In this document: positions 1 to 14,769 of the stretch, piece after piece
How positions within the stretch are numbered: position 1 is the first letter of the stretch
How the letters are laid out: each line of letters opens with the position of its first letter
Origin: Embleya scabrispora
GTDB taxonomy: Bacteria > Actinomycetota > Actinomycetes > Streptomycetales > Streptomycetaceae
Reading direction: 5' to 3'
Length of the DNA stretch: 64,000 nucleotides
NCBI RefSeq assembly: GCF_002024165.1
Contig: NZ_MWQN01000002.1
Coordinates: 682,001 to 746,000, forward strand
Program-made: the position numbers and the translations under genes
Notes under the pieces: model-generated
What the model saw: only the letters and a program-made list of their open reading frames with translations
Told to the model about the DNA's origin: nothing
Database searches by the model: none

Positions 1-210
1 CGGTCCGCGGGCCACCTCGACGCCGTTGACGGCCAGCGCGTAGCCGGAAAGGGCGACCAGGCGCGTGGGCACCCGCTCGGGGACCCGGTCCAACTCCAGG
101 ACGGCCCGCAGCGCGACGGTGTGCCGCCCGGAGGGCGGGCCGTCCGGCGACGCGGCCCAGATCCATCGGGCCCGCCAGCGTCCGGGCGGAAAGTCGTTGT
201 CGGCGATCAC
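1..210 (-). CDS. Probable alpha-L-rhamnosidase (GH78), N-terminal fragment
   Basis: The gene runs off the left edge, so only the first 70 residues are seen. The GTG start at 210 follows a GAAGGAA-type ribosome binding site. The fragment has a Trp-rich RARWIWA segment, then a beta-sandwich-like stretch ending in LAVNGVEVARGP. This resembles the N-terminal substrate-binding domain of bacterial GH78 rhamnosidases, where a WIW motif is followed by a VNG.x.GRGP turn. The catalytic domain is outside the window. Other sugar-binding beta-sandwich proteins share the VNG turn, so the family call is moderate. Confidence 0.55.
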   Translation of the reverse strand, partial: MIADNDFPPGRWRARWIWAASPDGPPSGRHTVALRAVLELDRVPERVPTRLVALSGYALAVNGVEVARGP

Positions 211-358: not shown

Positions 359-1261
359 CTAACGGGCCAGATGCTCGCGCACCGCCGCCAGCCAGCGCTC
401 CGGCTGCTCGGTCTGCGGGCTGTGTTTGGCGCCGGCGATCACTCGCAGGCGCGCGCCGGGGATGCCCGCCGCGAACTGCTCCGCCGCGCCGCGCAGTCGC
501 CGGTCGTGTTCGCCGACCACGACGGTGACCGGGCAGGAGACCTCGGCCAGCCGGCCGACCAGCGACGGGTACGCGCCGAGCGCCCGCGCGCAGCCGACGA
601 ACGCGGCGCGGTCCATCCCGGCCAGCGCTCGCGACTGCCGCTCGCGGCGGGCCAGGTCCTCGGGCGAGGCGTCGGCGGGCGCGCGGGTGAACGGTTTGAG
701 CAGGGTGAGCAGCGGTCCGAGGCCCCATCGGCCGACCACGGCGTTCAGACCCCGGCTCAGCACCCGCTGGACCGCGGACGAGGTGGGTTCGGCGGCGGTG
801 TCCATCAGCACCAGGGAGCGCACCCGATCCGGGTGGGCCAGCGTGTACCGCAGCGCGAGCACACCGCCCATCGAGTGGCCGAGCAGGTCGAACGGCTCGG
901 GCAGCATGCGCTCGGTGAAGGACTCCAGGTCGGCCGAGAGGTGGTCGAAGGTGTAGGCCGACCGCTCGCCGAATTTGGCGCTGTCGCCGTGCCCGCGGTG
1001 GTCGTACGCGAGCACCCGGCGATCATGGGCGAGCAGCGGCGCCACGCCGTCCCAGTCGGCCGCGCTGCCCGCGAATCCGTGCAGCAACAGCAGCGGTGCC
1101 GCACCCGATCCGGGGTCGGCCGAGGGCAGGTCGCGGTATCGCAAATCCGCCGCCGACCAGGGCGAACGGGGTGGGTCGAGGTGATGCGCTCGGGCCTCGC
1201 CGCGGGTACCGCCGGCGAGGAGTCGGGATGATGCCGTCCACGAAAGCCTTCCATCTGGCAT
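359..1261 (-). CDS. Alpha/beta-fold hydrolase
   Basis: A 300-residue protein of the single-domain alpha/beta hydrolase family. The oxyanion HG dipeptide is in LLLLHGFAG (about residues 57-65). The nucleophile elbow GHSMGG puts the serine at 130. Asp253 (GEHD) and His280 (AKHS) complete the triad. There is no signal peptide, so it should be cytoplasmic; its substrate cannot be read from the sequence. I chose the ATG at 1261; the frame stays open further upstream, but that extension is low-complexity Gly/Arg and runs through intergenic repeats. It lies head to head with the transporter operon beginning at 1522, which also includes an esterase, so a functional link is possible but unproven. Confidence 0.85.
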   Translation of the reverse strand: MPDGRLSWTASSRLLAGGTRGEARAHHLDPPRSPWSAADLRYRDLPSADPGSGAAPLLLLHGFAGSAADWDGVAPLLAHDRRVLAYDHRGHGDSAKFGERSAYTFDHLSADLESFTERMLPEPFDLLGHSMGGVLALRYTLAHPDRVRSLVLMDTAAEPTSSAVQRVLSRGLNAVVGRWGLGPLLTLLKPFTRAPADASPEDLARRERQSRALAGMDRAAFVGCARALGAYPSLVGRLAEVSCPVTVVVGEHDRRLRGAAEQFAAGIPGARLRVIAGAKHSPQTEQPERWLAAVREHLAR

Positions 1262-1410
1262 GTATTCGATGTTAGCGTCCCGCCGTCGTGATGTGACACA
1301 CAAATCCCCCGGATTCCCGACGGCCCGGACCCCGCGCCCACCGTCTCGACTCCCGATCCGCCGTCGGACGTCGGTGCTCCCCGGCATCGCCCCACCTCCG
1401 CCCCCACCCG

Positions 1411-1474
1411 CGAACCCGCGATCCGAACCCGGGATCCGAACCCCGGCCCGAACCCGCGATCCGAACCCGGGATC
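1411..1474. repeat. 26-bp exact direct repeat in a divergent promoter region
   Basis: Two identical 26-bp copies lie at 1411-1436 and 1449-1474, each holding CGATCC and a CCCGGG-centred palindrome. They sit between the divergent hydrolase (start 1261) and the substrate-binding protein (start 1522). The sequence shows only the repetition; a role as operator is an inference from its position. Confidence 0.7.
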
Positions 1475-1521
1475 GAACCACCACTGATCCATTGCTTCCT
1501 TTGAAGGACAGGTGAGCCGTT

Positions 1522-2856
1522 GTGTTGCTCCGAGGAGACGGACCCGCTCCCGCGCGACGTATCGCTGTAGGCGTGCTGCTCGCCGCCTTCGGCCTGACCG
1601 CCGCGGCCGGCTGCTCGGTCGAGAAGAAGTCGGACGCCGAGAAGCCCTCGGGCCCGGCCGCCGCCCCGAGCGGCCCGGCCCGAGGCGTCACCGACACCAC
1701 CGTCAAGCTCGGCGTCGCCGCCACCGACCCCGCCCAGCTCAAGGCCTTCGGCGTGCCCACCGAGGGCCCGGCGAGCAAGGACCTGTACACCGCCTGGGTC
1801 GCCGCGCAGAACAAGCGCGGCGGCGTCCAGGGCCGCACGATCGAACTCGCCTTCCGCCCGTTCCTGCCCACCGGCCCGGCCGAGGCGCAGGCCGCGTGCG
1901 TGGAACTGAGCGAGGACAAGAAGGTGTTCCTGGCCATCGGCATCCTCACCGGGGACACCCCGCTGTGCTTCACCGAGACACACGGCACCCCCTACCTGGG
2001 CCAATGGGGCCAGTCCGCCGAGCGCGACCGCCGCTCGAAGGCCCCGTTCGTCGCCCTGGAGATGGCCGACGACCGGCAACGCGCCGCCGCCGTCAAGGCG
2101 TTGCTCGACCAGAAGTCGTTGCAGGGCAAGAAGGTCGCGCTCTACTGGGAGGCCCAGGACGCGGCCGTCACCAAGAACACCGTGAAGCCTTTGCTCGACG
2201 CGGCCGGCGTCGACGTGGTCGTGCAGACCCCGCTCGACGACTACGGCAAGGACCAGGCCGCCGGCGACCAGGCGTTGGACACGCTGGTGCAGAAGATGCG
2301 CTCGGCGGGCGCCGACACCATCCTCAACACGTCCAACTTCTCCAACCTGATGATCGCGCTGCAACGCGCGAACTGGCTGCCCGAGCAGGTGTACGCCACC
2401 TCGGCCCAGGCGTTGAGCCCGGCCGTGGTCAAGACCACCGGGATCAAGCCCGCCACCATGGAGCGGGTGACGGTGGCCGCGCCGTACATCCCGACCAAGG
2501 CCGAACTGCTGGCCGATCCCGGACTGACCGCGTGTGTCGAGGAGTACAACGCGGGCGGCAGCGGCGAGAAGTTCGACGCGGGCGCGGCGAGCCGCGAGGC
2601 GCTGAGCGCGGTGGCCAACTCGTGTGCCGCGTTCCGGCTGTTCGTCCAGGCGTCCGACGCCGCCGGCCGCGACCTGAACGCCGCGTCCTGGCAGCGCGGC
2701 GCCGAATCGTTGACCAAGCTCACCCTGCCGGGCATGCCGCTCGCCTCGCTCGGTGCCGGCAAGCACAGCGCGGGCGACGCGGTCGGCGTGTTCCGCTGGG
2801 ACGCGGCGCAGAGCCAGATGCTCCCGGCCGGACCGCCGATCTCCGCCGTCAAGTGA
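1522..2856 (+). CDS. ABC transporter substrate-binding lipoprotein (branched-chain amino acid type)
   Basis: A 444-residue type I periplasmic-binding protein of the Leu/Ile/Val-binding (Peripla_BP_6) family. A hydrophobic leader ends in the lipobox LTAAAGC, with Cys31 as the lipidation site, so it should be anchored outside the membrane. The mature domain shows the usual LGVAATDP and ILTGDTPLCFTE segments. The GTG start at 1522 is weakly supported: the GAAGGA box is about 14 nt upstream. It is the first gene of the 1.5-9.1 kb operon, 40 bp ahead of the MFS-LivF fusion, and presumably feeds the LivHMG fusion. The ligand is unknown; the family binds amino acids, amides, urea and aromatic acids. 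Confidence 0.85.
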   Translation: MLLRGDGPAPARRIAVGVLLAAFGLTAAAGCSVEKKSDAEKPSGPAAAPSGPARGVTDTTVKLGVAATDPAQLKAFGVPTEGPASKDLYTAWVAAQNKRGGVQGRTIELAFRPFLPTGPAEAQAACVELSEDKKVFLAIGILTGDTPLCFTETHGTPYLGQWGQSAERDRRSKAPFVALEMADDRQRAAAVKALLDQKSLQGKKVALYWEAQDAAVTKNTVKPLLDAAGVDVVVQTPLDDYGKDQAAGDQALDTLVQKMRSAGADTILNTSNFSNLMIALQRANWLPEQVYATSAQALSPAVVKTTGIKPATMERVTVAAPYIPTKAELLADPGLTACVEEYNAGGSGEKFDAGAASREALSAVANSCAAFRLFVQASDAAGRDLNAASWQRGAESLTKLTLPGMPLASLGAGKHSAGDAVGVFRWDAAQSQMLPAGPPISAVK

Positions 2857-2896
2857 GCCCGTGACGGCGCGCGAAATCCCCAGAAAGGCCGAGCAC

Positions 2897-5218
2897 ATGG
2901 ACGGCGGCACCGCCGCACCCCAGCGGGACGGCACCGGAGGCGAGCACGGCGATCTGGCCGACCTCGCCGGTGCGGTCCTGGACGAATCCCCTCCGACGGC
3001 CGCGCGACGGGCGTCGGGCCGGTCCCGGCGGTCCGCCGGCGGCGCCGACACCGCCCTCCCCGGTGTCGGCGCCGCCGGTGCCGACCCGGCCGGCAAACCC
3101 CCCGCCGAGGGCCCGACCCTGCGGCAGGGGCTGCGGCGCGGCGGCACCTCGGTGTTCACCGTGCTGCTGATCCTGACCGCGCTCGACGAACTCGAAGGCG
3201 CCGCGCTGGCGGTGCTCGCCCCCGACATCCGGGACAGCCTGGGCGTCGGCAACGGCACGATCGTCTTCCTCGGCGTCGCGGCGGGGGCGTTCACCGTGCT
3301 CGGCGCGGTGCCGATGGGCTGGATCGCGGACCGCTTCCGGCGCGGCCCGGTGATCGGCGCGTCGACGGCGTTCTTCGCGATGATGGTGTTCCTGTCGGGC
3401 TTCGCGATGAACGCGTTCATGTTCTTCTGGACCCGCTTCGGCGCGGGGGTGGCCAAGTCCAACAGCGGTCCCGTGCAGGGGTCGTTGCTCGCGGACACCT
3501 ACCCGATCGGGATCCGCGGCCGGCTCGGCGCCTCGATCGGGGTGAGCGGCCGGCTCTGCGCGGTGCTCAGCCCCCTGGTGGTCGGCGGGATCGCGGCGGC
3601 CGTCGGCGGGCCCGACGGCTGGCGGTGGGCCTACTACCTGCTCGGCCTGCCGGTGGTGGTCTTCGCCGCGTTCGCCTTCTTCCTGCCCGAACCCCCTCGC
3701 GGGCAGTGGGAGAAGACCGAGGTGCTCGGCGAGGTGATCGAGGACGAGAACCCGCCGCCGATCTCGATCGAGGCGGCGTTCGCTCGACTCGGCCGGATCC
3801 GCACCCTCAAGACGGTCATCCTCGCCTTCGCCGCCATGGGCTTCGGCCTGTTCACCACGCCCGTGCTCGGCAATCTGTTCCTGGAACAGGAGTACGGCCT
3901 GGACGCGTTCGAGCGCGGCATGGTCGGCACCGCGGGCGGCGTCGCCGGGTTGCTCGTGCTGCCGTTCGTCGGCCGCTACTACGACCGGCGGTTCCAGGAG
4001 GACCCGGCCCGCGCGCTGCGGTTGATCGGGCTGTTGATCGTGCCCTCGGCGCTGTTCGCGCCGCTCCAGTTCTTCGCTCCGAACCCGGTGCTGTTCGCCG
4101 TCTTCGGGGTGCCGCAAGTGGTGCTGCTGTCCTGCGCGTTCGCGCTGATGGGCCCGCTGATGCAGACGATCGTGCCGTATCGGCTGCGCGGTCTGGGCAC
4201 CGCGATGGCGTCGATCTACGTGTTCTTCATCGGCGCCACCGGCGGCGGTCTGGTCTCCGCGCCGCTGATCGACGGCTTCGGACCGCGCACCGCGGTGCTG
4301 ATCACCCTGGTCCCGGCCACCATCATCGGCGGCCTGCTGATCATGCGCGGCGCCGAGCACGTGCACGGCGACCTCGCGCTGATCGTCGCCGAACTGCACG
4401 AGGAACAGGCCGAACACGCGCGCCGACAGGCCGAGCCGGACCGGCTGCCGGTGCTCCAGGTCAACCACGTGGACTTCTCCTACGGCCAGGTGCAGGTCCT
4501 GTACGACGTCGGCTTCGAGGTGCGTCGCGGCGAGGTGCTGGCGCTGCTGGGCACCAACGGCGCGGGCAAGTCGACCATCCTGCGGCTGATCGCGGGCCTG
4601 GCCACCCCCGAACGCGGGGTGATCCGGCTGAACGGACGCACCGTCACCTTCGTCGCCCCCGAACAGCGGGTGCGGATGGGCATCGTGTCGCTGGCGGGCG
4701 GCGCGGGGGTGTTCCCGGGGATGAGCGTGCGGGAGAACCTGGAGATGGGCGCGTACATCCACCGCGCCGACCCCGACCTGGTGCGCGAGCGCATCGAGCG
4801 CTCGCTCGCGCTGTTCCCGCGGCTGGTCGAGCGGGCCGACGAGCCCGCCTCGGCACTGTCGGGCGGCCAGCAGCAGATGCTCGCGTTGGCGATGGCGCTG
4901 CTGCACGACCCCGAGGTGTTGCTGATCGACGAACTCTCGCTCGGGCTCGCCCCGGCGATGGTGGGCGAACTCCTCGAGGTGATCGAACGGCTCCGGGCCG
5001 AGGGACTGGCGATGATCGTGGTCGAGCAGTCCCTGAACGTGGCGATGTCGATCGCCGACCGGGCGCTGTTCCTGGAGAAGGGCCGCATCCGGTTCGAGGG
5101 CGCGGCGGCCGACCTGGCCGAACGCGACTTCGTCCGGGCGGTGTTCCTGGGCGGCGACGCGGGAGCGGACACCTCGGACGAGCGCAGCGCACCCGGAGAG
5201 AGCGTCGACCATGGCTGA
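2897..5218 (+). CDS. MFS permease fused to a LivF-type ABC ATPase
   Basis: A 773-residue chimera. Residues 1-80 are a Gly/Ala-rich cytoplasmic leader. Residues about 82-495 form a 12-helix major facilitator domain with an MFS loop (GWIADRFRRGPV). Residues about 517-760 are a LivF-like ATPase with Walker [10 protein letters not shown], signature LSGGQQQ, Walker B VLLIDE and the VEQ switch typical of LivF. The ATG at 2897 follows AGAAAGG at good distance. It overlaps the next gene by 8 bp, so the two are translationally coupled. LivF is normally a free subunit pairing with LivG; here it carries its own secondary transporter. Whether the MFS part transports, senses or anchors cannot be told. Confidence 0.85.
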   Translation: MDGGTAAPQRDGTGGEHGDLADLAGAVLDESPPTAARRASGRSRRSAGGADTALPGVGAAGADPAGKPPAEGPTLRQGLRRGGTSVFTVLLILTALDELEGAALAVLAPDIRDSLGVGNGTIVFLGVAAGAFTVLGAVPMGWIADRFRRGPVIGASTAFFAMMVFLSGFAMNAFMFFWTRFGAGVAKSNSGPVQGSLLADTYPIGIRGRLGASIGVSGRLCAVLSPLVVGGIAAAVGGPDGWRWAYYLLGLPVVVFAAFAFFLPEPPRGQWEKTEVLGEVIEDENPPPISIEAAFARLGRIRTLKTVILAFAAMGFGLFTTPVLGNLFLEQEYGLDAFERGMVGTAGGVAGLLVLPFVGRYYDRRFQEDPARALRLIGLLIVPSALFAPLQFFAPNPVLFAVFGVPQVVLLSCAFALMGPLMQTIVPYRLRGLGTAMASIYVFFIGATGGGLVSAPLIDGFGPRTAVLITLVPATIIGGLLIMRGAEHVHGDLALIVAELHEEQAEHARRQAEPDRLPVLQVNHVDFSYGQVQVLYDVGFEVRRGEVLALLGTNGAGKSTILRLIAGLATPERGVIRLNGRTVTFVAPEQRVRMGIVSLAGGAGVFPGMSVRENLEMGAYIHRADPDLVRERIERSLALFPRLVERADEPASALSGGQQQMLALAMALLHDPEVLLIDELSLGLAPAMVGELLEVIERLRAEGLAMIVVEQSLNVAMSIADRALFLEKGRIRFEGAAADLAERDFVRAVFLGGDAGADTSDERSAPGESVDHG

Positions 5219-8177
5219 CCTGATGACCCGCCAGATCGCCTTCGACGGTCTGGTCAACGGCCTGGCGATCGGCCTGATCGCGCTCGGCGTGGTACTCGTG
5301 TACCGGTCCAGCCGGGTGATCAACTTCGCGGTCGGCAACCTCGGCGTGATCGGCGCCGCGCTGCTGCCGCTGGCCGTGATCAACTACGGCGTGCCGTTGT
5401 GGGCCGCGCTGCTCGGCGCGCTCCTGGTCGGCACGCTCGCCGGCACCGTCGTCGAACTCGCGGTGATCCGACGCCTGTTCCACTCCGCCCGGGTCACCGT
5501 GCTGATCGCCACCATCGGCGTGGCCCAGGCGTGCGTGGCCGCGGTGCGCTCGCTGCCCGATGTGGACGGCGCGGTCCGGGCAAGCTACCCGGTGGCCATC
5601 GACGCCCAGTGGCAGATCGCCGGCGTGCGGGTCACCGGCGCCCAGGTGTGCGTCCTGGTCGTGGTGCCCGTCGTGGCCGGCGCGCTGACCTGGTTCCTCG
5701 GCCGCACCACCCGGGGCCGGGCGGTCACCGCCTGCGCGGAGAACCCCGACCTGGCCCGCACCGTCGGGATCAGCCCCAAGATCGTGTCCACCGTGGTGTG
5801 GACCATCGCCGGCCTGCTGTCCACGCTCGCGATGATCCTGATCGCCGGCCAGTCGGGCCGGGTCTCGGCCACCGCCGACCTGGGTCCCAACACCATGGTG
5901 CGGGCGATGGCCGCCGCGGTGATCGCCGGACTCACCTCGTTCCGCTGGTCGATGCTCGCGGGCGTGCTGATCGGCGTGCTCCAGGCGGCCGTTCGGTTCA
6001 ACTTCGTCGAACAGACCGGCCTGGTCGACTTCCTGCTGCTGTGCGCCGTGGTCACCGCGGTGTGGGTGCGCGCTCGGCGCGACGCGCGCACCGACCAGCG
6101 AGCCGGAAGCCGGGCATTCGCCACCGGACCGCGACCGGCCCCGATCCCCGAGCGACTGCGCGGGGTGTGGTGGATCCGGCACATGAGCAAGCTCGCGCTG
6201 ATCGTGCCGCTGCTGATCGCCGTACTGCTGCCGCTGGTGGTCACCCAGGCCTCCCGGCACCTGCTCTACGGCACGATCCTCGCGTTCGCGATCTGCGCCT
6301 GCTCGCTCACCGTGCTCACCGGCTGGGCCGGGCAACTCTCGCTCGGCCAGATGGCGTTCGCCGGACTGGGCGCGCTCACCGCCGCCGCGCTGACGCGTGG
6401 TTTGTCGATCGACATCGGCGGCGACCGCACCATCGCCTTCCAGGCCCTGCCGTTCGCGCCCTCCGTGCTGCTGGCCGCGCTGGTCACCGCCGCGCTGGCC
6501 GCGATCGTCGGCGCCGGGGCGCTGCGGGTGGACGGCATGCTGCTCGCGGTCAGCACCTTCGCGCTCGGCGTCGCCGCCGCGGCCTACCTGTACCGGCGGC
6601 CGTTCCTCACCGACGGCAACGCCTCCTCCGTGCCGATGCCCAGGGGCGACCTGTTCGGTCTGGACCTGGCCGACGAACGCACCTACTACTACGTGCTGTT
6701 GGTCGTACTGATCGTGGTCCTGGCACTGCTGGCCCGACTGCGCGCACACGGCATCGGGCGGCGCACCATCGCGGTCCGGGACAACCCGGAAGCCGCCGCG
6801 GCCTGCACCGTGCCCCCACTGCGCACCAAGGTCACCGCATTCGCCCTGTCCGGCGCGATCGCCGGCCTCGGCGGGGCGCTGCTCGCGGGCAGCGTGCAGA
6901 GTGTGCCGCTGACCGAACGGTTCTTCCAGGTATCGGACTCGTTGACCCTGGTGGCGATCGTGGTGATCGGCGGACTCGGCTCCACGATCGGTCCGGTGAT
7001 CGGCTCGGTGTGGGTGGTCGGCTTGCCGGCCTTCTTCCCCGGCAATGCGCTGGTGCCGCTGTTCGCCTCCAGCATCGGGCTGCTCGTCCTGCTCCTGTAC
7101 TTCCCCGGCGGTCTCGCCCAGATCGCCAACGCGGCCCGCGCCGCGCTGCTCGACTGGGCGGAGCGGCGGCTGCCCGAGCCGAGCGCGGCGTCGGCGCCGG
7201 CGTCGACGCGTGCGCCGAAACCGGAACGCCCCATGCGTGTTCGGGAGCGGGCCGCCGCCGAGGCCTCCGCCGCGGTCGACGGAACCGACGCGCCCGTGCT
7301 GGTCACCCGCGAGGTGTCCGTGCGCTACGGCGGCAACACCGCCGTCGACAAGGTCTCCATCGAGCTGCGCCCCGGCGAGATCCTGGGCCTGATCGGGACC
7401 AACGGCGCGGGCAAGTCCACCCTGCTCAACGCGATCGGCGGCTTCGCGCCGGCCACCGGCTCGGTCGAACTGCTCGGCCGCGACGTCTCGCGCCTGGCTC
7501 CGGCCCGGCGGGCCGCGCTCGGCCTGGGCCGCACCTTCCAGGCGGCCCGGCTGTTCCCCGAACTCACGGTGCGCGAAACGGTGTTGGTCGCGCTGGAGGC
7601 GCGCGGTCGATCCGGGCTCGCGGGTACCGCGCTGTTCCTGCCCGCCGCCACGCGCGCCGAACGCCGGCGGCGGGCCGAGGCCGCCGACCTGATCGACCTG
7701 GTCGGTCTGGGCCGCTACGCCGACACCCCGGTGGCCCGACTGTCCACCGGAACCCGGCGCATCGTCGAGTTGGCCAACCTGATCGCGCTCGACGCGCGGG
7801 TGTTGTGCCTGGACGAGCCGACCGCCGGCGTCGCCCAGCGCGAGACCGAGGCGCTGGGTCCCCTGCTGCTGCGGCTGCGCCGGGAACTGGACGCCGCGAT
7901 GATCGTGATCGAGCACGACATGCCGTTCATGATGTCGATCAGCGACCGGCTGTACTGCCTGGGCGCGGGCCGGGTGATCAGCGAGGGCACGCCGGAGGAG
8001 GTGCGCTCCGACCCGGCGGTGATCGCCGGCTACCTGGGCACCGACACCCGCGCAATCGACCGCTCCGGCGCCCTCGGAGCCGGCGCCCCCGGCGCGCCGC
8101 AGCCCGCCCCCGTTTCCGTTTCCGCCCCCGTTTCCGTCTCGCCGCACCTCGCGGCCGATCCCGCGCCGGAGAACTGA
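5211..8177 (+). CDS. LivH-LivM-LivG fusion: two permeases and an ATPase in one chain
   Basis: A 988-residue protein joining three subunits that are usually separate. Residues 1-295 are LivH-like ([16 protein letters not shown]). Residues about 320-640 are LivM-like, with the conserved [15 protein letters not shown] and a GGLGS loop. A linker leads to a LivG-like ATPase at about 697-945, with Walker [10 protein letters not shown], a departing signature LSTGTRR in place of LSGGQ, Walker [11 protein letters not shown] and the IEHD histidine switch. The tail is low-complexity Pro/Ser/Val. With the SBP and the fused LivF it completes a two-ATPase importer. It overlaps the upstream gene by 8 bp and is 3 bp from the esterase. 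Confidence 0.9.
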
Positions 8178-8180
8178 CCC

Positions 8181-9134
8181 ATGCCCCTGGACCCGCCGAT
8201 CCAACGCATCATCGACCTGCTCGCCGACCACCGTTCCGCCGACCCGCCGCCTGGCACGTTGGCCGAGCGGCGCCGACTCGCCAACGCCACGATGCGGCTC
8301 GCCTTCACCGGTCGCCCCGACGACGTCACCGCGACCGACCACCGGATACCGGTCGCGGGCGGCGAAATCACCGTGCGCATCCTGCGTCCGGCCGGACTGC
8401 CCGCCGCCGCACCGGCGTTCTACTTCATCCACGGCGGCGGCTGGTTCCAGGGCGACCTGGACACCGCCGAGGTGGAGTTGGGGCCGATCACCGCGCAGGT
8501 GGCCTGCGCGGTGGCGCTGGTGGACTACCGGCTCGCGCCCGAACACCCCTATCCGACACCGCTGGAGGACTGCGTCGCGGGCTATGCGTGGCTGCACGCC
8601 CACCACGCCGAGCTGGGCCTGGACCCGAGCCGGATCGCGGTCGGCGGGTGCAGCGCGGGCGGCAACCTCGCCGCGCTGCTGTGCCTGGTCGCCCGCGATC
8701 GGCAACTGCCGATGCCGGTCGCGCAGTTGCTGGACGTACCCGGCGTGGACCTGACCCGGATGGAACCCTCGGCCGGCCCCGAGGCGATCGCGGACCTCGG
8801 CGGCCTGACCCCCGAGGCCTGCAACGAGTTCTTCGACCTGTACCTGCCCGAGGGCGTCGACCCGCGCGACCCGCGCGTGTCCCCGCTGTTCGAGCCGGAC
8901 CTGAGCGGTCTGCCCCCCGCGGTGATCACCATCGCCGAGCACGACCCGCTGCGCGACCAGGGCGAGCGCTACCTGACCCGGCTGCACCAGGCGGGTGTGC
9001 CCGCCGCGGCCTTCCGCGTCCTGGCCCACCTGCACGGCGGCTGGGTCATCCCCGGCACCGTCACCCACGCCCTCGTGGGCGATCTGCGCGCGGCGTCGGT
9101 GCGCCGCGCCCTCGACGGCACGCTCGCCCCCTGA
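8181..9134 (+). CDS. HSL-type alpha/beta hydrolase (esterase/lipase)
   Basis: A 317-residue member of the hormone-sensitive-lipase family. HGGGW (84-88) supplies the oxyanion hole. GCSAGG carries Ser158; most members have Asp where this one has Cys before the serine. EHDPLRDQ and the late HLHGGW supply the acid and the histidine. There is no signal peptide. It begins 3 bp after the LivHMG fusion and is followed by a strong terminator, so it is the last gene of the transporter operon. A natural reading is that the imported compound, or its CoA-free ester, is hydrolysed by this enzyme; this is inference. Confidence 0.88.
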   Translation: MPLDPPIQRIIDLLADHRSADPPPGTLAERRRLANATMRLAFTGRPDDVTATDHRIPVAGGEITVRILRPAGLPAAAPAFYFIHGGGWFQGDLDTAEVELGPITAQVACAVALVDYRLAPEHPYPTPLEDCVAGYAWLHAHHAELGLDPSRIAVGGCSAGGNLAALLCLVARDRQLPMPVAQLLDVPGVDLTRMEPSAGPEAIADLGGLTPEACNEFFDLYLPEGVDPRDPRVSPLFEPDLSGLPPAVITIAEHDPLRDQGERYLTRLHQAGVPAAAFRVLAHLHGGWVIPGTVTHALVGDLRAASVRRALDGTLAP

Positions 9135-9185: not shown

Positions 9186-9212
9186 TCGGATCCACCCCGT
9201 TTCACCCGCGTT

Positions 9213-9248
9213 CCATCCCCATCTCCATCCCCATCTCCATCCGCATCC
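9213..9248. repeat. 12-bp tandem repeat, three units
   Basis: The unit CCATCCCCATCT occurs twice exactly and once with two mismatches, in the spacer before the secreted hydrolase. No function is evident. Confidence 0.75.
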
Positions 9249-9344
9249 CCTCCGATCCACCGTCCCCGACGAAACACGCGCCATCGTCGTCCGATTCATC
9301 CGTTTTTGTTCTTTTTCACCCTCGCGTGACCTTTGGAGGTCAGG

Positions 9345-11342
9345 GTGTCCGTCCACATCCGCAGACAGCGGGCCACTCGGCACACCGCGGCCAGACGCCG
9401 CCTCGCCGTGTCGCTCGGCTCGGTCCTCGCCCTCGTCGCCGCGCTGTTCGGCGCGGTCCCGGCCGGCTCGACGCCCGCCGCCGCGACGCCGCTCGTGCAG
9501 GGCAGCGTCGCGCAGTACGGCGTCGCCACACAGCTCAACGTCCCCGTCACCATGGCCGACGGAACCGTGCTGCGGGCCGACGTCCGCACGCCCGCCGCCG
9601 CGGGCACCACCACCCCCGCCGCCGGATCGTTCCCGGTGCTGCTGATCCAGACCCCCTACGGCCGGGGCGGCGTCGAGGCCGAACTGTCCTGGTTCACCCA
9701 GCGCGGCTACATCACCGTCAGCGCCGACGTGCGCGGCACCGGCACCTCGGCCGGCTCCTGGTCGCCCTGGGCGCCGATCGAGGGCCAGGACGGCGCCGCA
9801 CTGGCGAACTGGGCCGCCGCGCTGCCGCACGCCGACGGCAAGGTCGGCCTCTACGGCGGCTCGTACGCCGGCATCAACCAGATCATGACCGCCGCCGCCG
9901 TCGGCCCGAACTCGCCGATCAAGGCGATCTTCCCGCTCGTGGCCGGCAACGACCTGTACCGCGAACTGGTCACCATGGGCGGCATCCCCGACTCCCAGTT
10001 CATGTCCTTCTGGCTCACCTACACCGGCATCTCGCACATGACCGCGCCGCTGGCCGAGGCACTGCGCGAGGGCTCGACCCAGAACATCCTGGACACCCTC
10101 ACCCTGGAGATCCAACACCTCGGCGGCGTCGCCCAATCCAACCTGCCCATCCTCACCGGCCTGCTCGGCGGCGGCGCGCAGGCCTACGACGGCACCTTCT
10201 GGCAGCAGCGGCGCCCCGCCGACATGCTGGCGAGCGTGGTCGCCAACGGCGTGCCCGCGTTCCTGGTCGGCGGCTGGTACGACCTGTTCCAGCGCGGCGC
10301 GTTGATGAACTACGCCGGACTGCAGAACGCGTGGGCCGGCCGCCCGGTCGGCGCGCCGATGACCGCCGACCAGCCGGTCACCGACCGCTACCAGCTCCTG
10401 ATGGGCCCCTGGTACCACGACCCGCGCCAGGACCCGACGCTCGACCTGCCCGCGCTGCACCTGCGCTGGTACGACAAGTGGCTCAAGGGCATCGACACCG
10501 GCATCACCGGCGCCGCGAACCCCAACCCGCTGCACGTCAAGGAACTGGGCACCAACCGCTGGCTTGACACCCGCGCCTACCCGTTCACCGGCGCCGACCC
10601 CACCCGCCTGTACCTGGACAAGGGCCGCACCGGCAGCGCCCCGGCCTCGGCCAACGACGGCGGGCTGAGCACGACCGCGCCCACCGCCAACGGCAGCGAG
10701 TGGATCAGCTGGACCGCCAACAACAGCCCGTGCACCCGCTCGACGGCGCAGTGGCTCGGCGGCTTCATCAAGGACCCGGCCTGCACCGACAGCAACACGG
10801 CACGGGAAACCGGGACCGGCTCGCTCGTCTACACCACGGCTCCGATGACCGAGACCAAGGTGCTGGCGGGCCCGATCGGCGCCACCCTGTACGCCCAGTC
10901 CAACACCCCCGAGACACACTGGGTGGTGACCGTCACCGACGTCGCCCCCGACGGCTCCTCGGTGCCGCTCAGCTCGGGCGCCCTGGCCGGCTCGCACCGC
11001 GCGATCGACCCGGCCAAGAGCTGGTACGCCCCGGACGGCAGCATGCTGATGCCGTACCACCCGTCGACCCAGGCGACCACCTCGTCCGTGCCGACGAACC
11101 AGGTCGTGCGCTACGACGTGGAGGTCTTCCCGACCTTCGCCTCGATTGCCCCCGGCCACCGGATCCGGGTGAACATCACCACCGCGGACACCCCGCACCT
11201 GTCCGCCACGCTGACCCAGACGCCGGGCTTGCTGGCCGGCATCTGGCAGCTCAAGTCCGGCCCCGCCAACCCGTCGTCGGTCACCATCCCGCTGGCGCCG
11301 GCCTCGGCGTTCGGCACGGCGTGCACGAGCGTGTGCCCGTAG
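9345..11342 (+). CDS. Secreted CocE/NonD-family hydrolase (S15 X-Pro peptidase-like)
   Basis: A 665-residue hydrolase. An Arg-rich N-terminus (RRRLAVSLG) and a hydrophobic stretch ending in PAAA form a signal peptide, so it should be exported. The core has TPYGRGG, DVRGTGTSAG and the nucleophile motif GGSYAG with Ser173, as in cocaine esterase and X-Pro dipeptidyl peptidases. The last 200 residues look like the jelly-roll PepX_C domain. I chose the GTG at 9345 because GGAGGT lies just upstream; a TTG 12 bp earlier would place that box inside the gene. It has its own terminator and stands alone. The family hydrolyses esters, amides or X-Pro peptides; which one applies is not visible. Confidence 0.87.
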   Translation: MSVHIRRQRATRHTAARRRLAVSLGSVLALVAALFGAVPAGSTPAAATPLVQGSVAQYGVATQLNVPVTMADGTVLRADVRTPAAAGTTTPAAGSFPVLLIQTPYGRGGVEAELSWFTQRGYITVSADVRGTGTSAGSWSPWAPIEGQDGAALANWAAALPHADGKVGLYGGSYAGINQIMTAAAVGPNSPIKAIFPLVAGNDLYRELVTMGGIPDSQFMSFWLTYTGISHMTAPLAEALREGSTQNILDTLTLEIQHLGGVAQSNLPILTGLLGGGAQAYDGTFWQQRRPADMLASVVANGVPAFLVGGWYDLFQRGALMNYAGLQNAWAGRPVGAPMTADQPVTDRYQLLMGPWYHDPRQDPTLDLPALHLRWYDKWLKGIDTGITGAANPNPLHVKELGTNRWLDTRAYPFTGADPTRLYLDKGRTGSAPASANDGGLSTTAPTANGSEWISWTANNSPCTRSTAQWLGGFIKDPACTDSNTARETGTGSLVYTTAPMTETKVLAGPIGATLYAQSNTPETHWVVTVTDVAPDGSSVPLSSGALAGSHRAIDPAKSWYAPDGSMLMPYHPSTQATTSSVPTNQVVRYDVEVFPTFASIAPGHRIRVNITTADTPHLSATLTQTPGLLAGIWQLKSGPANPSSVTIPLAPASAFGTACTSVCP

Positions 11343-11412: not shown

Positions 11413-11505
11413 CCGTGTGCCCACCGCGCGACCGCGCCGCGCCGACCGGCGCCGTCCGCGACCTCCGGTCGGCGGGTGGGTTCGTGGCTCTGGGATCCTG
11501 GGCGG

Positions 11506-14500
11506 ATGCGCGTGGCACTGCTCGGGACGGTCCGGGCCCAGGGGGACGACGGGACGCCGATCGAGATCGGGGGCGTGCGGCTGCGCATGTTGCTGGCCCG
11601 GCTCGCGCTGGACGCCGGACACGTGGTGTCGGTCGACACGATCGTGGACGGGCTGTGGGGCACCGAACCCCTGGCGGACGCCGGCAACGCGGTCCAGACG
11701 CTGGTGTCGCGGCTGCGCAAGGTATTGCGGGCGGCCGGGGTGTCGGTGGACCTGGTCGGCGGCGGCTACCGGCTCGCGCTGCGCCCCGCGGACGTGGACG
11801 TGCGCCGCTTCGAGGAACTGGCCGCGCGCGGCCGACGGGAGCTGGCGGCGGACCGCCCGGCCGAGGCGGCCTCCGTGCTGGCCGAGGCGCTGGCCCTGTG
11901 GGAGGGGCCGGCGCTGGGCGACCTGGCCGACGCGCCGTTCGCCCGCCCGGTCGCCGCCCGCCTGGACGGGCTGCGCGTGGACGCCGCCGAGGACCGGTTC
12001 GAGGCGCACCTGCGGCTGGGCCGGCACGCCGAGGTACTGGCCGACCTGGAAGCGGCCTGTGCCGCACACCCGTTGCGTGAGCGCAGTGCGGCGATGCGGA
12101 TGCGCGCGCTGTACGCGGCGGGCCGCCAGGCCGAGGCGTTGACCGTTTTCGAGGAGGTGCGCGGCCGGCTGGCCGGGGAACTGGGCGTGGATCCCTCGCC
12201 CGAACTGCGCGAGACCCATCTCGCGGTGCTGCGCGGCGAGTTGGCGCGCCCCGCCGCCGCGCGTCCCGAGCCGGTCGCGGATCACCTGCCGACCCGGTTG
12301 ACCGGCTTCTTCGGCCGCGACGCGGAACTCGGGCTGCTCGCCGAGCTGATGGCCGGCTCCCGCCTGGTCACCCTGGTCGGCGCCGGCGGCGCGGGCAAGA
12401 CCAGGTTGTCCGTGGAGGCGGCGACCCGGCATCCGGCCCACGGGCGCGGCCGGGTCTGGTTCGTACCGCTCGCCGGCGTGGGCGGCGCCGACGGCGTGCT
12501 CGACGCGGTGACGACCGCGCTCGGCTCCTGGGACCTGCGCTCCTCCGACGCCCGCCCGCGCCGGACCGGGTCACCGCTGGAGCGGGTTGCCGAACTGCTC
12601 GATGTGGGCGAGGCCGTACTGGTCCTGGACAACTGCGAGCACCTGCTCGACGCGGCGGCGGAGCTGGCCTACGGCCTGCTCGACCGGTTGCCGCGACTGA
12701 CCGTGCTCGCCACCAGCCGCGAGCCGCTGGGCATCACCGGCGAGGCGCTGTGCCGGGTCGGGCCGCTGCCGGTCCCGGTGCCGATCCCCGAGCACGGCGC
12801 CGCGCCGGACCCGGACACGGTCGCGCAGGCCGCGTCGGTGCGGCTGTTCCTGGACCGGGCCGCCGCCGTGCGGCCGGGCTTTCGGCTGGACGCGGCCACG
12901 ATCGGCCCGGTGGTGGAGATCTGCCGGCGCCTCGACGGGATGCCGCTGGCCCTGGAGTTGGCCGCCGCCCGGCTGCGGGCGATGAGCGTGGAGCAGATCG
13001 CCCGACGGCTCGACGACCGGTTCCGGCTGCTGAACGCGGGCAGTCGGGCCGAGGCGCCGCGGATGCGCACGCTGCACGCGGTGGTGGAGTGGAGCTGGGA
13101 CCTGCTCGCCGAACCGGAGCGGATGCTCGCCCGCCGATTGTCGGTCTTCCCCGGCGGCGCGACCGTGGACGCGCTCGAAGCGGTGTGCTCGGACGGGGGG
13201 TTGGCCGCGGACGACGTGTTCTACGTGCTCGGCTCGCTGGTGGAGAAGTCGATCGTGGACGCGGTCGGCGACGGCGAACCGCGCTACCGGATGTTGGAGA
13301 CGGTACGCGCCTACGCGGCGGAGCAGTTGGACCGCGCCGGCGAACGCGCCGAGTTCGCGGGCCGGTTCGAGCGCTGGTGCCTGGACCTGGCGGAGCGGCA
13401 CGACCCGCTCCTGCGCACCGCCGCGCAGTTGGCGGCGCTGGCGACCCTGGACGCCGAGTACGCCAACCTGATGGCCGCGCTGCGCGCCATGCTGGACGCC
13501 GGCGCGGCCGAGCCCGCCGCCCGATTCGCCGCCGCGCTGTTCTGGTACTGGGGCATTCGCGGGATCGGCGCGCCGTTCGAGACGATCGTGCCGGAGGTGC
13601 TGGGCTTCGGCGACGCGCTGCCCGAGGCCGCGCGGGCCGCGTTCGGCGCGATGCACGTGCTGGCCGCGATCACCGTGCCCCGGCTCGCGGACAGCGAGGA
13701 GTTGCGCGCCGCGCTCGCCGAGTGTGCCCGGACGGACGTGGTCGCGCGCTATCCGGCACTCGCCGTCGGCCTGCCGCTGGCCGCCTTCCTGTCCGGGAAC
13801 GCCGAGATCGGCGAACGCGAACTGGCCCGGATGTCGAACGGGCCCGACCCGTGGGCGCGGGCATGCGCGCACTGGGCACTGGACTTCGTGTGCAGCGACC
13901 GCGGCGACTGGACCTCCGGCGCGTTGGCACGAGCCGAGGCGCTGCGCGGATTCCGGGCGCTGGGCGAGCGGTGGGGCCTGGCGTCGGTGTCGATGGCCGT
14001 CGGCTCGCACCACTCGATCCGCGGCGAACACGCGGCGGCCGTCGCCGCCTTCGAGGAGGCGGTGGCGCTCATGGCCGAACTCGGCTCCGAAGACGACCTG
14101 GCCATGTACCGGGGCATGCTCGCGGCGGAGCGTATGCGTGCCGGCGACCTGGCGGGCGCGGAGCGCGAATTGCATGGCGCCGAGGCGCGGGCGCGGGAGC
14201 GCGGCCACCGGCACCTGGAGTTGACCGTGCTCTCCGGCCGCGCCGAACTGCACCGCCGGAGGGGCGATTTCGCGGCGGCCGAGGCGGCGCTCGACCGGCT
14301 GGACGTCCTTGCCGAGAGCCTGTCGCTGCCCGCCGAGCTGGTCGGTGACCTGGTCGCCAAGGGCCGCGTGGCCACCCTCCTGGCCCGGGCCGCGAACGGC
14401 GGGGGCGACGATGTGTCCGGGCGGGTCCGGGAGTTGCTGGCGACCGGCTCGGCCGGCGCGATCCGGCGACGCGATTTCGCCGACGCCGCGCCGGCGGCGG

Positions 14501-14769
14501 AACTGCTCGCCGCGCTGTTGGAGGCGACGGGCCACCCGGTCGACGCGGCCGAGGTGCTGGGCCTGGGCACGGCGCTGCGCGGGATCTTCGACGCGGGCAG
14601 CCCGGATCTGCGCGCCCTGGTCGACCGACTCGTCGCGGTCCTGGGCGAGGACGGCCACCGGGCGGCCTACGACCGGGGCGCGACGTTGTCCCGGAACGCG
14701 GCGGCGACCGCGCTGACCGCCCGGCTCACCCTCGATGCCCGTGCCGACGCGGCGCCGAACTCAGCCTAA
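11506..14769 (+). CDS. SARP/AfsR-like transcriptional regulator (BTAD, NB-ARC, TPR)
   Basis: A 1087-residue large regulator. Residues 1-90 are an OmpR-type winged helix (DGLWGTEPLADAGNAVQTLV). About 95-245 is the bacterial transcriptional activation domain, rich in LRERSAAMRMRALY-type helices. A STAND/NB-ARC ATPase follows with P-loop VGAGGAGKT near residue 292, Walker B VLVLDNCEH, and GMPLALELAAARL. The C-terminal 400 residues are Ala/Leu-rich TPR-like helices. Such proteins activate secondary-metabolite or morphogenetic genes after nucleotide binding. The ATG at 11506 gives the standard family N-terminus MRVALLG. No biosynthetic cluster lies beside it, so its target is probably elsewhere. 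Its last 4 bases overlap the convergent VOC gene. Confidence 0.9.
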   Translation: MRVALLGTVRAQGDDGTPIEIGGVRLRMLLARLALDAGHVVSVDTIVDGLWGTEPLADAGNAVQTLVSRLRKVLRAAGVSVDLVGGGYRLALRPADVDVRRFEELAARGRRELAADRPAEAASVLAEALALWEGPALGDLADAPFARPVAARLDGLRVDAAEDRFEAHLRLGRHAEVLADLEAACAAHPLRERSAAMRMRALYAAGRQAEALTVFEEVRGRLAGELGVDPSPELRETHLAVLRGELARPAAARPEPVADHLPTRLTGFFGRDAELGLLAELMAGSRLVTLVGAGGAGKTRLSVEAATRHPAHGRGRVWFVPLAGVGGADGVLDAVTTALGSWDLRSSDARPRRTGSPLERVAELLDVGEAVLVLDNCEHLLDAAAELAYGLLDRLPRLTVLATSREPLGITGEALCRVGPLPVPVPIPEHGAAPDPDTVAQAASVRLFLDRAAAVRPGFRLDAATIGPVVEICRRLDGMPLALELAAARLRAMSVEQIARRLDDRFRLLNAGSRAEAPRMRTLHAVVEWSWDLLAEPERMLARRLSVFPGGATVDALEAVCSDGGLAADDVFYVLGSLVEKSIVDAVGDGEPRYRMLETVRAYAAEQLDRAGERAEFAGRFERWCLDLAERHDPLLRTAAQLAALATLDAEYANLMAALRAMLDAGAAEPAARFAAALFWYWGIRGIGAPFETIVPEVLGFGDALPEAARAAFGAMHVLAAITVPRLADSEELRAALAECARTDVVARYPALAVGLPLAAFLSGNAEIGERELARMSNGPDPWARACAHWALDFVCSDRGDWTSGALARAEALRGFRALGERWGLASVSMAVGSHHSIRGEHAAAVAAFEEAVALMAELGSEDDLAMYRGMLAAERMRAGDLAGAERELHGAEARARERGHRHLELTVLSGRAELHRRRGDFAAAEAALDRLDVLAESLSLPAELVGDLVAKGRVATLLARAANGGGDDVSGRVRELLATGSAGAIRRRDFADAAPAAELLAALLEATGHPVDAAEVLGLGTALRGIFDAGSPDLRALVDRLVAVLGEDGHRAAYDRGATLSRNAAATALTARLTLDARADAAPNSA

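Follow-up and report, generated by a model that had tools for sequence, protein, structure and literature searches.

The window, the whole 64,000-nucleotide stretch of the 10.96 Mb Embleya scabrispora genome that we analyzed, holds a tight four-gene operon on the forward strand. The first gene encodes a substrate-binding lipoprotein of the Liv type (SBP; 1522..2856, + strand), with a GTG start and, judged by eye, a lipobox (alignment A6). After 40 bp comes the MFS-LivF fusion gene (2897..5218, +; 773 aa), in which a Spinster-like MFS domain, including TM12 and a stalk helix, spans 3119..4432 (residues 75–512) and a LivF-type ATPase domain spans 4454..5152 (residues 520–752). This gene overlaps by 8 bp with a LivH-LivM-LivG fusion gene (5211..8177, +; 988 aa) composed of LivH (5229..6092, residues 7–294), LivM (6183..7169, residues 325–653) and LivG-type ATPase (7299..8045, residues 697–945) domains. 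A gap of 3 bp separates it from the last gene, an Abhydrolase_3 esterase of the hormone-sensitive-lipase type (8181..9134, +; Pfam and NCBIfam). Both fusions and all of their domains are assigned from Pfam and structure models, with NCBIfam in addition for LivH, NCBIfam and motifs for the two ATPases, and a PDB profile match for the MFS domain. A sequence-only reading of this DNA had described the same gene order, overlap and gap, and the coordinates and Pfam agree with it.

The best start for the MFS-LivF gene is the ATG at 2897, eight bases after AGAAAGG, with the stop at 5218. A GTG at 2753 was rejected as the start, since it would overlap the SBP gene and AGAAAGG precedes the ATG at 2897. 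Within this single frame Pfam finds both MFS_1 (E = 1.9e-34) and ABC_tran (1.6e-28), so a covalent link joins the MFS to one ATPase of a Liv-type importer, as the earlier reading had proposed. The LivH-LivM-LivG frame matches BPD_transp_2 twice (E = 9.1e-57), ABC_tran and BCA_ABC_TP_C.

Downstream of the operon lies a CocE/NonD hydrolase gene (9333..11342, +; mechanical start) with, by eye, a signal-peptide-like N-terminus; it stays adjacent to the operon in four related loci. On the other strand, beside the operon, are a divergent alpha/beta hydrolase (359..1492, −), whose mechanical frame runs through a repeat array and whose true start is probably further in, and the 5' end of an alpha-L-rhamnosidase gene (1..210, −) that extends beyond the window (whole gene L222:9913-12210) and is followed, outside the window, by a gene for a GH3 enzyme. 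Two repeats are present: a 13-bp tandem repeat of 5.5 copies (window 1411–1479) between the divergent hydrolase and the SBP gene, and a short 12-bp/6-bp repeat (window 9212–9250) between the esterase and the CocE-type gene. A large BTAD-type regulator (window 11476–14769) adjoins the cluster, and Embleya sp. NBC_00888 (L053) has one there too.

Transporter classifications keep ABC importers apart from MFS carriers, and the usual Liv layout comprises five separate subunits and no MFS. The fusion loci depart from this separate-subunit, MFS-less arrangement. Like Liv/HAAT importers and the urea importer Urt, they encode two LivH/LivM-type permeases, intact LivF/LivG motifs and often a linked SBP; they differ from both in the multi-domain fusions, in the MFS on LivF and in equivalog scores below cut-off, and from Liv/HAAT importers also in gene neighbors that, around Embleya, do not point to amino acids. 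In LivF, K558, S559 and T560 are invariant and D678 and E679 are kept in at least 90% (alignment A3); in LivG, K735, D868, E869 and H902 are invariant (alignment A4). Scores against the curated NCBIfam equivalogs fall short (181 of 441 bits for LivF, 203 of 362 bits for LivG), and lie far under the cut-offs for LivF, LivG, UrtD and UrtE. The window SBP reaches no Pfam or NCBIfam cut-off; the three SBPs scanned from related loci all match Peripla_BP_6 (PF13458), and phmmer with one related SBP found no match in the PDB.

Distribution, layouts and history of the fusion

An assembly error joining two genes that are separate in close homologs would have undone the sequence-only reading. A pattern scan for the MFS half over contigs of 84,980 species, the one search that reached phyla beyond Actinomycetota, yielded 21 loci in Embleya, a strain labelled Streptomyces, Acidimicrobiia, other actinobacterial MAGs and one "Acidobacteria" MAG. 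In whole genomes, and with stand-alone MFS matches included, matches were present in 8 of 61 relatives (E 1e-40) and in 7 of 396 genomes phylum-wide (E 1e-60), the own genome being counted in both, and in 49 of 247 genomes (E 1e-30) from the class of genome G318, which we took as Acidimicrobiia because it contains Candidatus Microthrix. The fusion was found in all four Embleya genomes searched (our own and three others) and far outside the genus; the MFS half in the window is 99% identical to its counterpart in Embleya hyalina.

We classified 120 loci, of which 13 were near-identical duplicates and 107 distinct. MFS and LivF share a single open frame in 96 of the 107, and the other 11 are nine stand-alone MFS genes, a scaffold gap (L103) and a contig end (L188); stand-alone MFS genes were fetched deliberately, five more of them (L170–L174) lying outside this tally, so these counts are not frequencies. 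The only split case among close homologs is L103, where a run of N separates MFS from LivF. With 96 of 107 loci fused and the one split explained in this way, an assembly artefact is ruled out. The MFS-LivF fusion is genuine and kept in many actinobacterial species, and the search for the same domain order across actinobacteria that had been proposed as a check comes out in its favor.

We rejected the locus labelled Acidobacteria (L029, JADFOM010000059.1) as evidence of spread beyond Actinomycetota, since the matches in its phylum group are the same actinobacterial genomes that other searches returned, and the label is probably a mistake. Some genomes carry several copies of the MFS family, at five places in G004 and six in G537, perhaps for different substrates. 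In one draft genome (L059:3484-6243) the LivF half matches partially, with 57% similarity, below its neighbors, perhaps owing to a local frame error.

The MFS is directly N-terminal to LivF in 96 of 96 fused loci; the order of LivH, LivM and LivG is shuffled. With square brackets marking genes, the layouts are [MFS-F][H-M-G] in 40 loci, plus 14 cut so that only H is visible; [H-M][MFS-F-G] in 30, of which 15 are truncated and do not show H; [MFS-F][H-M][G] in five; and [H-M-G][MFS-F] in one. The remaining six are cut or single forms. At L219:5371-10557, LivH, LivM, MFS, LivF and LivG occupy one 1729-codon frame with all five parts confirmed by Pfam. In the related L218 there are still two genes, and the single frame may be a true single-chain transporter or result from a sequencing error or the loss of a stop codon. 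The sequence-only reading had also held that the two ATPases must meet as a heterodimer. On this point the family suggests a LivF-LivG pair beneath LivHM, the arrangement of other Liv importers, which would give one MFS unit per ABC core, and the [H-M][MFS-F-G] layout places both ATPases on one chain.

An SBP of the window's family is present in 48 of 79 loci longer than 6 kb (near-duplicates included; 14 of the 48 had gone into the profile): 48 of 70 loci with fused or split MFS-LivF versus none of nine with stand-alone MFS. A linked SBP was not found in 14 marine Acidimicrobiia loci.

The LivF tree unites the fused LivF domains, whatever their layout, with those of five MFS-less systems in a single clade (100/99). 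These sister systems, arranged as [F][H-M-G], [H-M][F-G] or [H-M-F-G], thus share the LivF clade with the fusion and differ in having no MFS match within the fetched stretches; L165 and L166 group with layout I and L167–L169 with layout II, and some sister systems co-occur with the fusion in the same genomes (G437, G601). LivH, LivM, LivF and LivG lie in a single frame without MFS at L168:8698-13026 (by Pfam) and L169:6671-11629 (by tblastn only). One row labelled as a plain LivF in this tree, L151, proved to be the ATPase of fusion L204; the "generic" group comprises 13 others and L151.

In the tree of MFS domains (78 rows, including 14 stand-alone genes), L204:7787-10030, an MFS-LivF fusion of the same architecture, falls inside a stand-alone clade (100/99), apart from the other fusions. 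A single origin of all fusions was rejected by the AU test (p = 1.6e-10 with the fused rows alone and L170 left out; p = 0.00084 with L170; p = 0.015 with L170 and L097), and one clade of the fusions minus L204, with L170, was not rejected (p = 0.42); the groups were named after inspection of the tree, and three rows (L204, L206, L170) sit on long branches. Two or more independent fusions are favored by these trees, not proven.

The MFS half and its stalk

A profile of 50 MFS domains from three layouts, searched against the PDB, ranked HnSpns first (8e-35), followed by Spns1 (1.5e-27), SPNS2 (1e-20) and then a D-galactonate transporter (4.8e-18). By this profile comparison the MFS is closest to Spinster carriers among solved structures. 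The top NCBIfam model is a D-galactonate-transporter subfamily, with a score far under its cut-off. Foldseek, run with both structure models, was uninformative for the MFS, the 50 matches listed all being ABC proteins.

Sixteen residues are invariant in all 50 domains, at identities down to 23%, including D145, R146 and R149 of motif A, D200, R207, W242, R243, G269, E272, R340 and R431. An MFS half devoid of conserved residues, which would have counted against the sequence-only reading, is therefore not what the family holds. We mapped residues by hand onto HnSpns through the printed alignment, using the residue roles given in PMC9440201. The HnSpns relay D87-R91-D142 corresponds to D145-R149-D200, each kept in 50 of 50. 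The hinge glycine is likewise kept in every domain and the hinge arginine in 47, and the position of R122, the RxxxG arginine, is Arg in 43. Unlike in HnSpns and SPNS2, an ABC ATPase is attached and the glutamate of the TM4 proton switch, E129, is replaced by Lys in 42 domains and Arg in 3 (other residues in 5, Glu in none). The position of D41 holds Glu in 20, Asp in 14 and Gln in 11, and the TM1 substrate arginine, R42, is kept in only 12 of 50. TM1 has extra acidic residues, D97 (42/50) and E98 (41/50); that region is truncated or misaligned in the five third-layout rows, whose full sequences have no Asp-Glu pair. As read from the alignment, the gate of the MFS is intact and the classic Spinster proton switch is absent; as 45 of 50 domains have Lys or Arg at the TM4 position and only 12 keep the TM1 arginine, classic Spinster proton coupling is doubtful. 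We rejected the idea that fusion caused this loss, as the stand-alone MFS L097 carries the same TM1 Asp-Glu and TM4 Lys.

Against four close relatives, dN/dS (Nei-Gojobori) was 0.078–0.146 for the MFS half versus 0.033–0.154 for the ATPase half. Purifying selection acts on both, and the MFS is as constrained as the ATPase. For the linker, the same comparison gave 0 to 0.728 over 25 codons. In the AlphaFold2 model of MFS-LivF (37 sequences; pLDDT 82.6, pTM 0.77), TM12 and the linker are predicted as a single helix, residues 463–512, terminating just ahead of the ATPase; the LivH-LivM-LivG model has pLDDT 81.1 and pTM 0.82. The stretch from TM12 into the ATPase measures 55–57 residues in 69 of 72 rows (near-duplicates included), the other three being unaligned there. 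A frame filter had removed L014, L015, L029 and L103, the first three apparently since a neighboring ATPase was picked. Fusion L204, outside this set, has by eye a longer linker. The letters of the stalk are thus less constrained than its length.

Gene neighbors and substrate

Among the companions of the operon, which the sequence-only reading had proposed to map, glycosidases recur around Embleya; the neighbors differ between clades. Of 16 loci from the window's family or order (L010, on a short contig, left out), 10 have a GH3, rhamnosidase or GH1 gene, against 0 of 19 arbitrary 20-kb regions from our own and two related genomes, a contrast biased by queries drawn from the same loci, by five of the ten being orthologous and by the few controls. 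Esterase genes are also near many members around Embleya. By eye, and with mechanical starts, six of the glycosidases have no signal-peptide-like start, which would fit import of an intact glycoside. Among distant members, a rhamnosidase is found at L071 and L105 and a GH1 enzyme at L067.

The 24 Acidimicrobiia loci of layout I have other neighbors, with acyl-CoA dehydrogenase genes at 9, CoA-ligase at 7, amidohydrolase at 10 and proline racemase at 8 (counts for which that class supplied no control regions); almost none of these families are found with layouts II and III. In the marine Acidimicrobiia L020, L021, L023, L027 and L028, CoA-ligase and acyl-CoA dehydrogenase genes lie directly upstream of MFS-LivF, with proline racemase in some, hinting at a different substrate there. 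Since neighbor genes differ between clades, substrates are probably clade-specific, and one common substrate for all members is unlikely. We set aside amino acids as the substrate around Embleya, where the gene neighbors lend them no support.

Models for a carrier tethered to an importer

The explanation that we find best, held at a little less than even confidence, is a Liv/HAAT importer whose LivF would bear a working Spinster-type permease through the continuous TM12 helix, the permease handling a lipophilic compound, either a partner or a product of the conjugate taken up. The SBP and ABC core would bring in an amphipathic conjugate; for the loci around Embleya this is probably a glycoside carrying rhamnose or acyl groups. 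Cytoplasmic glycosidases and esterases would trim it. The tethered unit would act at the same spot, moving that lipophilic compound (an aglycone or acid), and the LivF ATPase would be mechanically coupled to the gate of the MFS. The MFS would then be a working alternating-access unit and not a dead anchor. We counted in favor of this explanation the one-frame fusion, the layouts, the linker length, the invariant residues, the dN/dS values, the SBP linkage, L204 and the glycosidases. Against it we counted the replaced TM4 switch, the D-galactonate ranking in NCBIfam, the marine loci without SBP, the varying neighbors and the variable stalk letters, as well as the MFS-less sisters, which show that such a Liv core can dispense with an MFS.

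That the fusion is kept in many species, and perhaps arose more than once, suggests that both carriers act as one machine. In the strongest form of this idea, which is possible though doubtful, ATP turnover by LivF and LivG would drive or gate the Spinster-type MFS via the TM12 stalk, combining conjugate import with product movement, or with hand-over of a membrane-borne substrate, in one obligate complex that was fused at least twice.

The MFS could instead resemble a transceptor, sensing substrate or product and gating the LivF ATPase through the stalk while transporting little or nothing. Speaking for this are the replacement of the proton switch in 45 of 50 domains, with motif A, D200, W242-R243 and G269 invariant in all 50, the continuous helix and the nearly constant linker length. 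Regulatory domains fused to transporters are, moreover, a known theme (PMC10710835). Yet the stand-alone L097 has the same TM1/TM4 pattern, which hence marks no fused regulator, and the entire MFS is constrained like the ATPase, so we regard this role as rather unlikely.

Still less probable is that the MFS serves mainly as a membrane anchor or assembly aid for LivF, with transport a relic. Sister systems in the same LivF clade lack the MFS and their core would function alone, but an invariant gate network across 50 domains would be superfluous for anchoring, the dN/dS of the MFS is as low as that of the ATPase, and to our knowledge the LivF of other Liv systems requires no anchor. Finally, the lost TM4 switch and the helical stalk into LivF could mean that the ATPase pair also serves the MFS, ATP turnover driving or unlocking a second translocation path in place of proton coupling, but the same charges occur in L097, which has no ATPase, and we know of no ATP-driven MFS, making this very unlikely.

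Full-text literature searches aimed at the fusion found no description of an MFS-LivF union; an earlier mention is possible, and the survey of MFS C-terminal fusions by Willson et al. 2019, cited in PMC10710835, lay outside these searches. Fusion partners of MFS carriers listed in the available part of PMC10710835 are CBS, cyclic-nucleotide, PAS and UspA domains, with no ABC ATPase among them. MFS-LivF shares with those carriers a soluble domain behind TM12; it differs in that this domain is no sensor but a catalytic ATPase belonging to another transporter. The individual parts are already known, and their union seems to be undescribed. To the sequence-only reading, the analysis adds the likeness of the MFS to Spinster carriers, the varied order of the Liv domains, sister systems that lack the MFS, and opposite-strand genes for the rhamnosidase and the GH3 enzyme.

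If the proposed importer with its tethered permease is true, a conserved covalent union of a full MFS with one ATPase of an ABC importer would mean that both transport mechanisms can be mechanically linked. It would offer a natural system for learning if ATP hydrolysis could control the gate of an MFS or power its transport, for which the MFS-less sister systems, some of them co-resident, are a ready-made control.
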